Source of the DNA: a virus
Length of the DNA stretch: 24,319 bases
Virus record (IMG/VR): IMGVR_UViG_3300025070_000233
Span: 1-24,319 of that record
Reading direction: 5' to 3' (one strand)
Within the stretch, counting starts at the first letter, position 1; each line of letters begins with the position of its first letter. A program made the position numbers and the translations under genes. The notes beneath the pieces are model-generated. The model saw nothing but the letters and a program-made list of their open reading frames with translations, had not been told where the DNA came from and did no database searches. This document shows, one piece after another, positions 13,746-21,035 of this stretch.

Positions 13746-14590
13746 AAATCATATCAAGAACAGAGGCAGTCCAGCTCGGGCTGTCTCGTTACTTTACCGG
13801 CAAGCCTTGCAGTAAAGGCCATATTGCCTATAGGCGAACAGCCAATCATAACTGTTCTGTATGTTCTAATGAGCAAGCAAAAGCACACTCGCAAAAGTTA
13901 CGCGACAATAGCAAGCTGACAGTTACAGGAAACCCAAAGCATGAGCAACCAGCAAGAGAGAAGGCAAGGCAAGAGGCCATAAGGTCAGGAGCTAAAACTT
14001 ACTTTCACGGCATACCGTGCAAGCGGGGCCATGTTGCGCCAAGGCATACATCTAACGGTATGTGCATGGATTGTAGTAGGCAACATAACTCTACAGATAA
14101 AGCAAAAGCACGAAAGAAAAAGCATAAGCTCGACAACGCCGAGCATTATAGAGAAATGGGCAGGCAATATAGGGCTGAGAACAGCGATAAGATGCGCGAA
14201 TATCTAAAGCAATACTATGCCGATAACAAAGAAGAACATGCAAAGAAAAACAGGCTCTACAGGATAAAGCACAGAGATTGCCCGGTACAGAAGGCAAAAA
14301 AGAAAGCTTTTTCTGACAAGTGGCGCAAAGAAAACCCTGATTACTTCACTGAATACGCAATAAAACGAAGCAAGGTGCTGAAAAAAGCAACACCAAGCTG
14401 GTCAAACATAAGCAGCATCACTGTGAAGTACAAAGAACGTACAGCCATGACAAGGCTGACAGGCGTGGAGCACCACGTTGACCATATCATTCCATTGCAA
14501 GGTAAAAACGTCTGCGGATTGCACATACCTGCAAACCTTCGCGTCATTCCAGCTAGAGACAACCTAAGAAAGCATAACCGCTTTGAATAA
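13742..14590 (+). CDS. HNH endonuclease with two N-terminal zinc-finger repeats
   Basis: The protein has 282 residues. Two repeats, YFTGKPCSKGHIAY...CSVC (Cys23, His27, Cys38, Cys41) and YFHGIPCKRGHVAP...CMDC (Cys93, His97, Cys108, Cys111), have identical C-x3-H-x10-C-x2-C spacing and probably bind zinc and DNA. A basic helical linker (115-215) follows. The C-terminal HNH core is EHHVDHIIPLQG (242-253), with Asp246, His247, Asn264 and Asn273. It may be a free-standing homing or host-DNA-cutting nuclease. Its start overlaps the XRE stop (ATGA), and it is the last gene of the early operon before the heptamer array. Confidence 0.85.
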   Translation: MKIISRTEAVQLGLSRYFTGKPCSKGHIAYRRTANHNCSVCSNEQAKAHSQKLRDNSKLTVTGNPKHEQPAREKARQEAIRSGAKTYFHGIPCKRGHVAPRHTSNGMCMDCSRQHNSTDKAKARKKKHKLDNAEHYREMGRQYRAENSDKMREYLKQYYADNKEEHAKKNRLYRIKHRDCPVQKAKKKAFSDKWRKENPDYFTEYAIKRSKVLKKATPSWSNISSITVKYKERTAMTRLTGVEHHVDHIIPLQGKNVCGLHIPANLRVIPARDNLRKHNRFE

Positions 14591-14595
14591 CACGC

Positions 14596-14653
14596 AGTGC
14601 TTAGCTGTAATGCTTAGCAGAGTAGCTAAGCATTGCACTAGGCCTGTTTTTTT
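14596..14653 (+). terminator. Terminator of the rightward early operon
   Basis: TGCTTAGC and GCTAAGCA (14611-14632) form an 8-bp stem with loop AGAGTA. An outer AGTGC/GCACT pair (14596-14600 with 14635-14639) extends it. A run of seven T follows at 14647-14653. It lies just after the HNH stop codon. The gap between the outer stem and the T-run is about seven bases, longer than ideal. Confidence 0.6.
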
Positions 14654-14660
14654 ATATAGA

Positions 14661-14714
14661 AAAGTTTGCTTAGGGAAGTGCTAAGCAAGACTTGCTTAGC
14701 TAATCTGCTAAGCA
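14661..14714 (-). terminator. Terminator of the leftward accessory operon
   Basis: On the minus strand, TGCTTAGC (14714-14707) pairs with GCTAAGCA (14700-14693) over a 6-base loop, with further copies offering alternative stems. ACTTTTC follows at about 14666-14660. It lies about 80 bases past the stop of the last leftward gene. The T-run is short, so its efficiency is uncertain. Confidence 0.5.
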
Positions 14715-16467: not shown

Positions 16468-16704
16468 CTAATGTATTGACCCGGCGTTTTCGAGAAAGAC
16501 CGTTATCTGCATCTCCTCCTCATCTATCTCCGCCTCAAGCTGTCCCTTACCGTCACAAACATGACAAGGCAATAACCTGTCTTCTAAATATCCACCGTGC
16601 TCGAAGTCCCGAACCCCAACTTCATACAAAGCTTCGCCCTTGCCATCACACTCATCGCACTCAACCCACACTGTCTCTGTGTATTTTTTCTCTAAAGAAG
16701 TCAT
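16468..16704 (-). CDS. Small zinc protein with two DnaJ-type CxxCxGxG motifs
   Basis: The protein has 78 residues. CDECDGKG (about 16-23) and CHVCDGKG (about 47-54) form two CxxCxGxG units that together bind one zinc, as in the DnaJ cysteine-rich domain. The remainder is acidic and has no J-domain. Such proteins may bind unfolded partners or only use the zinc for structure. The start at 16704 (MTSLEKKY) is supported by GGAAAGG upstream and overlaps the regulator gene by 44 bases. An ATG three codons earlier and a GTG at 16671 are alternatives. The gene ends 11 bases before the PAPS-reductase-like start. Confidence 0.7.
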   Translation of the reverse strand: MTSLEKKYTETVWVECDECDGKGEALYEVGVRDFEHGGYLEDRLLPCHVCDGKGQLEAEIDEEEMQITVFLENAGSIH

Positions 16705-16873
16705 CAGGCCCAACCTTTCCGTCTGTAATGAGGTATATAACCCGCAGTGTTTCAGGCGATGGAAACCTAGCGCCGGTTATAATACGAGAAATAGCTGCTG
16801 CGGATAACTCACACCTCCGCGCAAATTCACCTTGAGAAGTATTTGTTTGCTTTAAGTAGTCATGTAAAAACAA
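16661..16873 (-). CDS. XRE-type helix-turn-helix regulator, TTG start
   Basis: The protein has 70 residues. NTSQGEFARRCELSAAAISR (11-30) then IITGARFPSPETLRVIYLIT is a clear lambda-repressor-type HTH. The C-terminus (GKVGPDDFFREK) is typical of short Cro-like proteins. No in-frame ATG precedes the HTH, and the TTG at 16873 has GGAG seven bases upstream, just past the DUF6378-like stop, so this start is well supported. It may control the divergent promoter region near 18029-18234. It overlaps the zinc-protein gene by about 44 bases in another frame. Confidence 0.75.
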   Translation of the reverse strand: MFLHDYLKQTNTSQGEFARRCELSAAAISRIITGARFPSPETLRVIYLITDGKVGPDDFFREKIHRDSVG

Positions 16874-18079: not shown

Positions 18080-18108
18080 TTGACAGATTGGTAAATGGTT
18101 AGTAATTA
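18080..18108 (+). promoter_or_regulatory. Sigma70-like promoter of the recombination operon
   Basis: A perfect TTGACA (18080-18085), a 17-base spacer and TAATTA (18103-18108) lie 127 bases before the exonuclease ATG. The start site would fall near 18115 and leave a leader of about 120 bases, which contains the inverted repeat at 18161-18220. Confidence 0.7.
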
Positions 18109-18160
18109 GAATAGGCAAGGATATTTCAAAGCTCGTTTTTGTCTACAAACATGCGGGTTA

Positions 18161-18231
18161 GAGGGTAGGGTTCCTTGCGGGGTGTTTTCTCCATTCCATC
18201 CTTTTGAATGCCCTACCCTCACTAAGGAGGG
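18161..18231 (+). promoter_or_regulatory. Structured mRNA leader that can expose or hide the ribosome binding site
   Basis: GAGGGTAGGG (18161-18170) is perfectly complementary to CCCTACCCTC (18211-18220). TTA/TAA extends the stem across a 2-base bulge. The last five bases of the 3' arm, CCCTC (18216-18220), can instead pair with GAGGG (18227-18231), which is part of the AAGGAGGG ribosome binding site, over the loop ACTAAG. The first pairing frees the site and the second blocks it. A smaller CATTC/GAATG hairpin (18192-18196 with 18206-18210) lies in the big loop. This is the layout of a translational switch. The trigger is unknown. Confidence 0.6.
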
Positions 18232-18234
18232 TTT

Positions 18235-19128: not shown

Positions 19129-19295
19129 CGGAGACGGAACAAGAACACGCTCAACTGATAGACTTTCAGCAAGAGCGAATGAATAGGATTGAGGCCCAGC
19201 TAGAAGAAACACGAAGCATGGTCGCAACCCTTTTTGGTATGCTGGATGCGTACTTTAAGTCCCAGAATATAGAATTTGAGGAAAATGATGAGTAA
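19125..19295 (+). CDS. Small coiled-coil protein between exonuclease and annealase
   Basis: The protein has 56 residues from the ATG at 19125, which overlaps the exonuclease stop as ATGA and has GGAGGG four bases before it. An ATG four codons earlier lies inside the exonuclease gene and has no own site. ERMNRIEAQLEETRSMVATL is a heptad-patterned helix, followed by an acidic tail. It might bridge the two flanking recombination proteins, but that is inference. The stop overlaps the annealase start. Confidence 0.65.
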   Translation: MTETEQEHAQLIDFQQERMNRIEAQLEETRSMVATLFGMLDAYFKSQNIEFEENDE

Positions 19296-19977
19296 AATTA
19301 TTGATGCAATGGGCCTAGTGTCTGCCCTGAATAAATCACACGGCGTAAAGCAACGCGGTGGTAAAATGTACACGCAGGTTGTTCACCGTATGGAAGCTTT
19401 TAGAACAGTGTTCGGCTTAGATTATGGCGTGGATACCACAATCATTGTTGACGATGGTAAGAAGGTCGTGATAAAGGCTGTAATTACTAATGAGAATGGT
19501 ATTGTTGTTGGCTCTGGCATGGCGGAAGAAATCCGTGGCGATGGTCATGTAAATACAACGTCTGCATTAGAGAATTGTGAGAGCTCCGCCGTAGGTAGAG
19601 CGCTTGCTTCGGTAGGATTAGCTGGCGGCGAGTACGCATCAGCAAACGAAATGGACGCTGTGCCTAGAAAGGCAGAGAACCTAAAGCATCAGACGGGTGG
19701 AAGCGATGTGTCTAGCCCTCCCTTGAGCCCCGCGCCCCCGTCTGACCCAGCCCCCACACCAGTATCCGAGCCTAGCGACCCGGACAAGGAAGCTGATACA
19801 AATCTATACATGCAGCTCGAAGCAAAGATTGCAAAGAAAACTGCACGGGCCGCTGTTGACCAAGTTTATATCGAGCATATGGATAAGCTCAAAGCTTTAC
19901 AGGCTAGAAACCCTGAAAGGCATGAGAAGTTTATTGCTTTATTTAAAAACCGCCTAAACGAAATAGAAGGAGTTTAA
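19288..19977 (+). CDS. ssDNA annealing protein, ERF/Rad52-like
   Basis: The protein has 229 residues from ATG 19288; ATG 19285 and TTG 19276 are alternatives, but GAGG at 19278-19281 is best spaced for 19288. VVHRMEAFRTVFGLDYGVDT (31-50), GIVVGSGMAEE (71-81) and NTTSALENCESSAVGRALAS (89-108) then GEYASANEM form the core seen in phage annealing proteins of the ERF/Rad52-like group (the ...SA.GRAL... helix). A Pro-rich linker (about 145-170) and a basic helical tail follow. It would anneal ssDNA made by the upstream exonuclease. The superfamily name is less certain than the role. Confidence 0.75.
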   Translation: MSKIIDAMGLVSALNKSHGVKQRGGKMYTQVVHRMEAFRTVFGLDYGVDTTIIVDDGKKVVIKAVITNENGIVVGSGMAEEIRGDGHVNTTSALENCESSAVGRALASVGLAGGEYASANEMDAVPRKAENLKHQTGGSDVSSPPLSPAPPSDPAPTPVSEPSDPDKEADTNLYMQLEAKIAKKTARAAVDQVYIEHMDKLKALQARNPERHEKFIALFKNRLNEIEGV

Positions 19978-19978
19978 C

Positions 19979-20296
19979 ATGGCGATAAGACTTGAAAAGG
20001 TGACATCAATTAAGGTGTTCCCAAATACTGATGGCGCGGCTAAGTGGGGAAACAGCAAGTTCACCCCATATAAAGATGGTTCGCCAGCGGATATTCATCT
20101 CAGCGCTAACAAGAAGTACCGGGTTAGTGTATTTGAAAATGACGACGGTTCTTTGGGCATCTCTATCACTGAGCCTATGGAACAGCAGGCTGGTGACAAC
20201 CTGCATGACAACGTACAGCAGGGCGGCATGAAGAAACTTGCGGTTGATTCTGCAATTCGTCGTGATGTACCTATAGATGACGATATTCCTTTTTAG
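19979..20296 (+). CDS. Small SSB-like protein with DDDIPF tip
   Basis: The protein has 105 residues. The last six, DDDIPF, are identical to the acidic tip of bacterial SSB, which recruits recombination and replication proteins. The N-terminal 65 residues are strand-rich (IRLEKVTSIKVFP..., KKYRVSVFENDDGSLGISIT) and may be a short OB-like domain, but canonical SSB is about 175 residues. The middle (66-98) is Gln/Asp-rich and flexible, as in SSB linkers. It starts two bases after the annealase stop. It probably coats ssDNA or mimics the SSB tail. Direct DNA binding is not proven. Confidence 0.65.
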   Translation: MAIRLEKVTSIKVFPNTDGAAKWGNSKFTPYKDGSPADIHLSANKKYRVSVFENDDGSLGISITEPMEQQAGDNLHDNVQQGGMKKLAVDSAIRRDVPIDDDIPF

Positions 20297-20962: not shown

Positions 20963-21035
20963 GAGGCAGGGCATTATAAATCTTTATTTTTCTTTATGAA
21001 AAACCGTTAGTTACACTGGTTTAGTGTCCTGCCTC
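20963..21035. terminator. Inverted repeat in the convergent gap
   Basis: GAGGCAGG (20963-20970) and CCTGCCTC (21028-21035) are perfect inverted copies at the two edges of the 80-base gap between convergent genes, enclosing an AT-rich core with T-runs on both strands (ATCTTTATTTTTCTTTATG) and a small AAACC/GGTTT hairpin (21001-21022). The long loop makes it a loose bidirectional terminator at best. Confidence 0.45.

Follow-up and report, generated by a model that had tools for sequence, protein, structure and literature searches.

The question raised by this locus is what a strong RNA helix is doing in the leader of a phage recombination operon, immediately ahead of the ribosome binding site. 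The window, meaning the whole stretch of DNA analysed, comprises 24,319 nt of the IMG/VR virus record IMGVR_UViG_3300025070_000233 (positions 1 to 24,319), and its terminase has the HTVC010P-type pelagiphages as nearest relatives, at 54-56% identity. When the window was searched against annotated phages, no matches were returned at the DNA level and only three distant relatives at the protein level, so that no isolate with expression data was usable; a host or prophage copy was sought in genome contigs and none was found. The operon opens with an exonuclease for which the AlphaFold2 model (pLDDT 92) gave the RecE exonuclease 3h4r as the best PDB fold (E 3.3e-4, probability 1.00), and continues with a conserved protein and an SSB-like protein (Table 1). 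An annealase identity for the second product was unconfirmed by sequence or fold, with neither Pfam nor PDB support, and the name is kept here as putative.

Table 1. Features of the leader and of the recombination operon in the window.
Feature	Position	Strand	Basis
Palindrome TTGACA-GAT-TGGTAA (TTGNCANNNTGNCAA), overlapping the -35 box	18080..18094	+	Pattern match in the window
Weak -10 box TAATTA, 17 nt spacing	18103..18108	+	2/6 matches; spacing from relatives
Tentative P1 5' strand (GCAAGGA), where the transcript is predicted to begin	18115..18121	+	Complementary to 18172-18178
P2 5' strand GAGGGTAGGGT	18161..18171	+	Inverted repeat, folding, arm swapping
Tentative P1 3' strand (TCCTTGC), immediately 3' of the P2 5' strand	18172..18178	+	Complementary to 18115-18121
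P2 3' strand GCCCTACCCTC	18210..18220	+	Inverted repeat, folding, arm swapping
Shine-Dalgarno (SD) GGAGGG	18226..18231	+	Sequence
RecE-like exonuclease, first operon gene, 297 aa	18235..19128	+	AlphaFold2 model and PDB fold match
Conserved operon protein, putative annealase	19276..19977	+	Matches only PHROGs of unknown function
SSB-like protein, conserved C-terminal DDDIPF tail	19979..20296	+	Alignment of eight homologues

Two other repeat features were noted in the window. A cluster of inverted and repeated TGCTTAGC/GCTAAGCA units (inverted repeats I1, I5, I6, I13, and I17) occupies 14594-14714, in the interval that separates a plus-strand gene, whose end is at 14590, from the next minus-strand gene, and is possibly an origin, an operator cluster, or a terminator. 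The inverted repeat GAGGCAGGGCATTA / TAGTGTCCTGCCTC lies at 20963-21035 between convergent genes and is probably a bidirectional terminator.

The sequence-only reading had described a leader RNA in which a 3' arm pairs perfectly with an arm 40 bases upstream or, alternatively, with the ribosome binding site. The first of these pairings was confirmed. The exact arms (18161-18170 and 18211-18220) form a helix of 10 bp, 40 nt apart, which reaches 11 bp with a U-G pair (18171/18210); this helix, P2, has a probability of 0.99 in the predicted ensemble, and a stem as strong arose in 1 of 300 dinucleotide shuffles of the leader. It is the helix alone that stands out, as the overall energy of the 146-nt leader is not unusual (z = -1.63). 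P2 ends five bases before the SD, which is mostly unpaired when P2 is formed (0.73 in the predicted ensemble), and opening the helix was computed to cost 7.7-8.0 kcal/mol at 20-37 °C.

The claim that this leader is transcribed from a consensus promoter was upheld in part: the -35 box (TTGACA, 18080-18085) is perfect and the predicted start lies upstream of the helix, but the -10 box matches poorly and a promoter scan of the window did not list a promoter at 18080-18108. The transcript is predicted to start near 18114 because relatives have good -10 boxes at equal spacing (TATAAC in L153 and TATAAA in L152). The palindrome over the -35 box is a probable operator of an HTH repressor. Given that a divergent HTH repressor gene lies near the promoter in most relatives, and that the palindrome is retained in long and short leaders alike, the primary control of the recombination operon would probably be transcriptional repression. 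Nearly all promoter-bearing relatives that have a divergent HTH gene were seen to retain the palindrome; the HTH gene of the window is located at 16661-16873 on the minus strand, with a C5-methyltransferase gene and a small gene between it and the palindrome.

Exonuclease and DNA-pattern searches yielded 237 loci with a readable leader, amounting to 110 distinct leaders, among which the best-stem score is bimodal: 18 score 24-38 and the rest 17.5 or less. When only leaders with a -35 box no more than 150 nt from the start codon are considered, those extending 29-71 nt past the box have no strong stem and those extending 78-144 nt all have one. Across the stem-bearing leaders, 0-5 of 300 dinucleotide shuffles gave an equally strong stem, and the P2 probability in the predicted ensemble was 0.89-1.00 in 16 of 17 leaders; a further, longer leader (L033) has a probable imperfect version of P2, as read by eye. 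The distance from the end of P2 to the SD is about 4-15 nt in relatives. The 5' arms are highly diverse (GAGGGTAGGGT, GGGGATAGGTT, TGGGGTAGGTT, GAGGGGCGG, TGAGAGGTGGCGG, GAGAGACGGTAGC, and TGGGGGTGAGGCACCA), being purine-rich, with pyrimidine-rich 3' arms. Covariation was scored by swapping native arms instead of by column counts, because MAFFT misaligned the P2 strand of L152 in the subgroup that carries a second helix, P1. Among eight representatives, which are only approximately independent since GGGGATAGG is common to the arms of L017, L029, L153, and L155, the native 5'/3' pairing had a lower total energy than any other of the 40,320 possible assignments. P2 is therefore under selection as a structure and is kept by compensatory change, so that the earlier description of a structured leader RNA for the recombination operon holds, its main helix covarying strongly across homologues. 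In L002, the nearest relative (exonuclease 97% identical), the arms change together from GAGGG/CCCTC to GGGGG/CCCCC and P2 is kept. The arms and loops vary between groups with no family-wide conserved core, and Rfam searches with the window (E up to 5) and six relatives (E up to 1) returned no match. When GGGGATAGGT...CCTATCCCC was sought in all viral contigs, only unrelated inverted repeats, in about the number expected by chance, were recovered beyond the known family. The leader RNA module is thus real and, as far as Rfam shows, undescribed.

The switch that had been proposed for this leader fared less well and is now regarded as very unlikely. Under that proposal, a ligand, temperature, or a protein would decide whether the 3' arm pairs with the upstream arm or with the SD. 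The alternative pairing is available in the window, where CCCTC at the end of the 3' arm can pair with GAGGG of the SD (18227-18231) to the exclusion of P2, and masking the P2 5' arm during folding drops the accessibility of the SD from 0.73 to 0.17; the same masking shows that many leaders have a 3' arm capable of hiding the SD, and the predicted fold of L017 without P2 conceals both the SD and the start codon. The pairing is nevertheless not conserved. The double change in L002 retains P2 but, as the SD stays GAGGG, breaks the helix between the 3' arm and the SD; in 16 leaders, 23-93% of shuffled arms pair with the SD as well as the native 3' arm does, and the native energies of this pairing are no better than those of swapped arms. 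The covariation sought in homologous leaders is accordingly found for P2 and not for the 3' arm with the SD, and the potential for the latter pairing is compositional, since 5' arms are purine-rich and 3' arms pyrimidine-rich. A thermosensor is unlikely given that opening P2 costs about 8 kcal/mol at both 20 and 37 °C and that P2 leaves the SD unpaired, and a small-molecule riboswitch is unlikely given the missing family-wide core and Rfam match. The leader resembles anti-SD riboswitches and RNA thermometers in having a helix beside the SD whose 3' arm is able to pair with it, and differs from them in its unconserved alternative pairing, its lack of a common core, and a P2 that is too stable for a thermometer.

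Five relatives (L017, L029, L152, L153, and L155) possess the second helix, P1, in which the bases flanking the P2 5' strand are mutually complementary and covary. Written as the sequences immediately 5' and immediately 3' of the P2 5' strand, the flanks are GGCAGT/ACTGTC in L017, ACGGC/GCCGT in L029, GGCTCA/TGAGCC in L152, ATGCGGC/GCCGCAT in L153, and ATACGGC/GCCGTAT in L155. When flanks were swapped among five leaders including the window, the native arrangement ranked first among the 120 possible assignments; after the inclusion of L029, no more than one alternative among 720 did equally well, and shuffled flanks matched the native stability of P1 in 0.005-1.6% of draws. Together, P1 and P2 in the five relatives are predicted to form an H-type pseudoknot at the likely transcript 5' end. 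The predicted 5' end falls in P1 or a few bases from it in these five (and tentatively in the window), and in P2 or a few bases from it in L042, L045, L122, L123, and L139. An adjacent P1 is absent from the leaders of L038, L042, L045, L122, L123, and L139, and in leaders without P1 the computed cost of opening P2 is 15-25 kcal/mol at 20-37 °C, and 15-20 kcal/mol at 37 °C alone. The P1 candidate of the window has 39 nt between its 5' strand and that of P2, and the chance of such a match is about 0.008 directly after the P2 5' strand and 0.08 anywhere in the loop; it stays tentative because L002 is too close to count as independent, and the window probably belongs to the P1 subgroup. If any two-state behaviour is present, covariation points to P1 versus P2 and not to P2 versus the SD. 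Two additional elements were considered and dropped, namely a hairpin (P4) in the loop that separates P1 from the P2 3' strand, which was mostly no better than shuffles, and an anti-SD, CUCC, within the loop of P2 (window, L139, and L153), which is absent from L155, a close relative of L153.

The module occurs only within a single clade of 48 rows (support 98) in a phylogeny of 108 exonucleases. It changes state there 11 times, with at least 6 of these changes forced by well-supported branches, which amounts to 6-11 gains, losses, or exchanges among closely related phages. Near-identical exonucleases may be preceded by nothing, by a mini-hairpin (ACGCATAGCGT), or by the long element between the same promoter and SD. 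In L029 and L030 the element precedes a different first gene, with the exonuclease coming after, so that it goes with the promoter and not with one protein, and it is always found on the transcribed side, between the promoter and the SD. Strong SD-proximal hairpins occur at 73 of 1407 gene starts of these loci against 11-18 in shuffles, about five times as often, in a count that includes terminators and unreal ORFs; this enrichment fits a general rather than an operon-specific function, with terminators contributing.

Several other features were observed at such positions. A sequence-conserved mini-hairpin, GAAAACGCATAGCGT, replaces the long element before the SD in L010, L011, L014, L015, L021, L022, L041, and L055, and small ORFs lie between the promoter and the exonuclease gene, at the usual place of the hairpin, in L035, L048, L054, L233, and L241. 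The hairpin CCATTGACGGGC-4 nt-GCCTGTCAGTGG recurs with covarying arms before the SD of several unrelated small genes, upstream of the starts L129:1286, L121:650, L106:1255, and L119:844.

The leader structure probably acts as an exchangeable element for stabilisation or control. The explanation we favour, with a confidence that falls a little short of even, is that of an optional, structure-conserved 5' leader module serving as a ligand-free stabiliser or insulator of the recombination operon. The module would be inserted between a promoter that is probably repressed and the ribosome binding site, and its RNA would fold during transcription, the GC-rich P2 closing just before the SD and P1, in one subgroup, tying the transcript 5' end into an H-type pseudoknot with P2. 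As the SD is mostly free once P2 of the window is closed, the default state would be ON. An mRNA 5' end held in a helix would be protected from 5'-end-dependent decay and the message would live longer, whilst P2, held against the ribosome site, would shield that site from other pairings; the level and duration of operon expression would thereby be tuned with no ligand. The works listed in PMC3997798 include 5'-terminal stem-loops that stabilise E. coli mRNAs (ompA and papA). Like the phage element, those leaders have a stable helix of largely free sequence that precedes the SD and lies close to, or at, the start of the transcript; the phage module differs in being optional, in being exchanged between phages, and in its covarying pseudoknot in one subgroup, and its effect on half-life is presumed. 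In relatives, a helix lies at the predicted 5' end or a few bases from it; in the window, such a placement depends on the tentative P1 and the predicted start. Several points stand against a stabiliser: disregarding P1, P2 of the window starts 47 nt from the predicted 5' end, the -10 box of the window is weak, and many close relatives do without the module. Moreover, four of the five relatives with an adjacent P1 have exactly the same P2 5' strand, GGGGATAGGT, an identity that a purely structural role does not need and that would be expected of a binding role.

That last observation leads to the main rival of the stabiliser reading, a protein-bound operator, which we consider rather unlikely. 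An operon product (the SSB-like protein or the putative annealase) or a host protein would bind the P1/P2 pseudoknot and cover the ribosome site, giving feedback like that of T4 gp32, which represses via a leader pseudoknot (PMC535899; PMC3014915). Five relatives, and the window tentatively, share with the gene 32 operators of T4 and RB69 a predicted H-type pseudoknot at the start of the leader, and the phage leaders also share with them an operon that encodes an ssDNA-binding protein, here the SSB-like protein with its DDDIPF tail; within the P1 subgroup GGGGATAGGT is also nearly invariant. The T4 operator, however, includes an unstructured region of more than 40 nt with UUAAA repeats that overlaps the ribosome binding site (PMC535899), whereas no such tract follows the structure in the phage leaders, where the GC-rich P2 is flush with the SD. 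The first gene is the exonuclease and not the SSB-like gene, the same gene set is driven by leaders without P1 or without any element, the other P2 sequences are wholly different, and binding here is hypothetical. It is more doubtful still that HTVC010P-related marine phages carry undescribed, exchangeable leader pseudoknots acting as a feedback operator for an SSB-like or annealing protein, independent of T4. Were an operon protein to bind the leader, it would provide a parallel to the T4 gene 32 pseudoknot, described in a 2010 review as perhaps the sole viral pseudoknot in translational autoregulation (PMC3014915).

Three further readings were considered. Host RNase III could cut the helix and thereby generate the mature 5' end of the operon mRNA, and a leader with 9-18 bp of double-stranded RNA free of sequence constraint would suit such cutting; most P2 helices (9-13 bp) are nonetheless short for a typical site, many close relatives have no helix, and cutting there would bring the new 5' end to only a few bases from the SD, which makes this role improbable. 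With a structured RNA immediately following the promoter of an early-type operon, the locus also recalls the put RNA of HK022, whose putL of about 70 nt forms two stem-loops just downstream of PL (PMC9378689), and suggests an antitermination or anti-pausing element that, located at the 5' end of the early transcript, would act on RNA polymerase. Yet the sequence of put RNAs is conserved and they make specific contacts, while the leader stems vary freely and lie flush against the SD, and a terminator scan of the plus strand from the element to the operon end found nothing convincing; antitermination is hypothetical here and would come as a surprise. Equally hard to credit is a DNA-level element (a cruciform, replication origin, or single-strand hairpin), which the location in a divergent promoter region might suggest but which sits poorly with a position always on the transcribed side between promoter and SD, a strand asymmetry (purine-rich 5' arm), and absence from some close relatives.

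Whichever role it serves, be it the favoured one of a stabilising module or another, the element is a phage regulatory RNA selected for shape and not for sequence, inserted like a cassette after a conserved promoter/operator and ahead of the ribosome site. Such elements, swapped here between nearly identical phages, evade sequence-based RNA catalogues, and the case offers the lesson that an attractive alternative pairing in one sequence may fail once relatives are compared.
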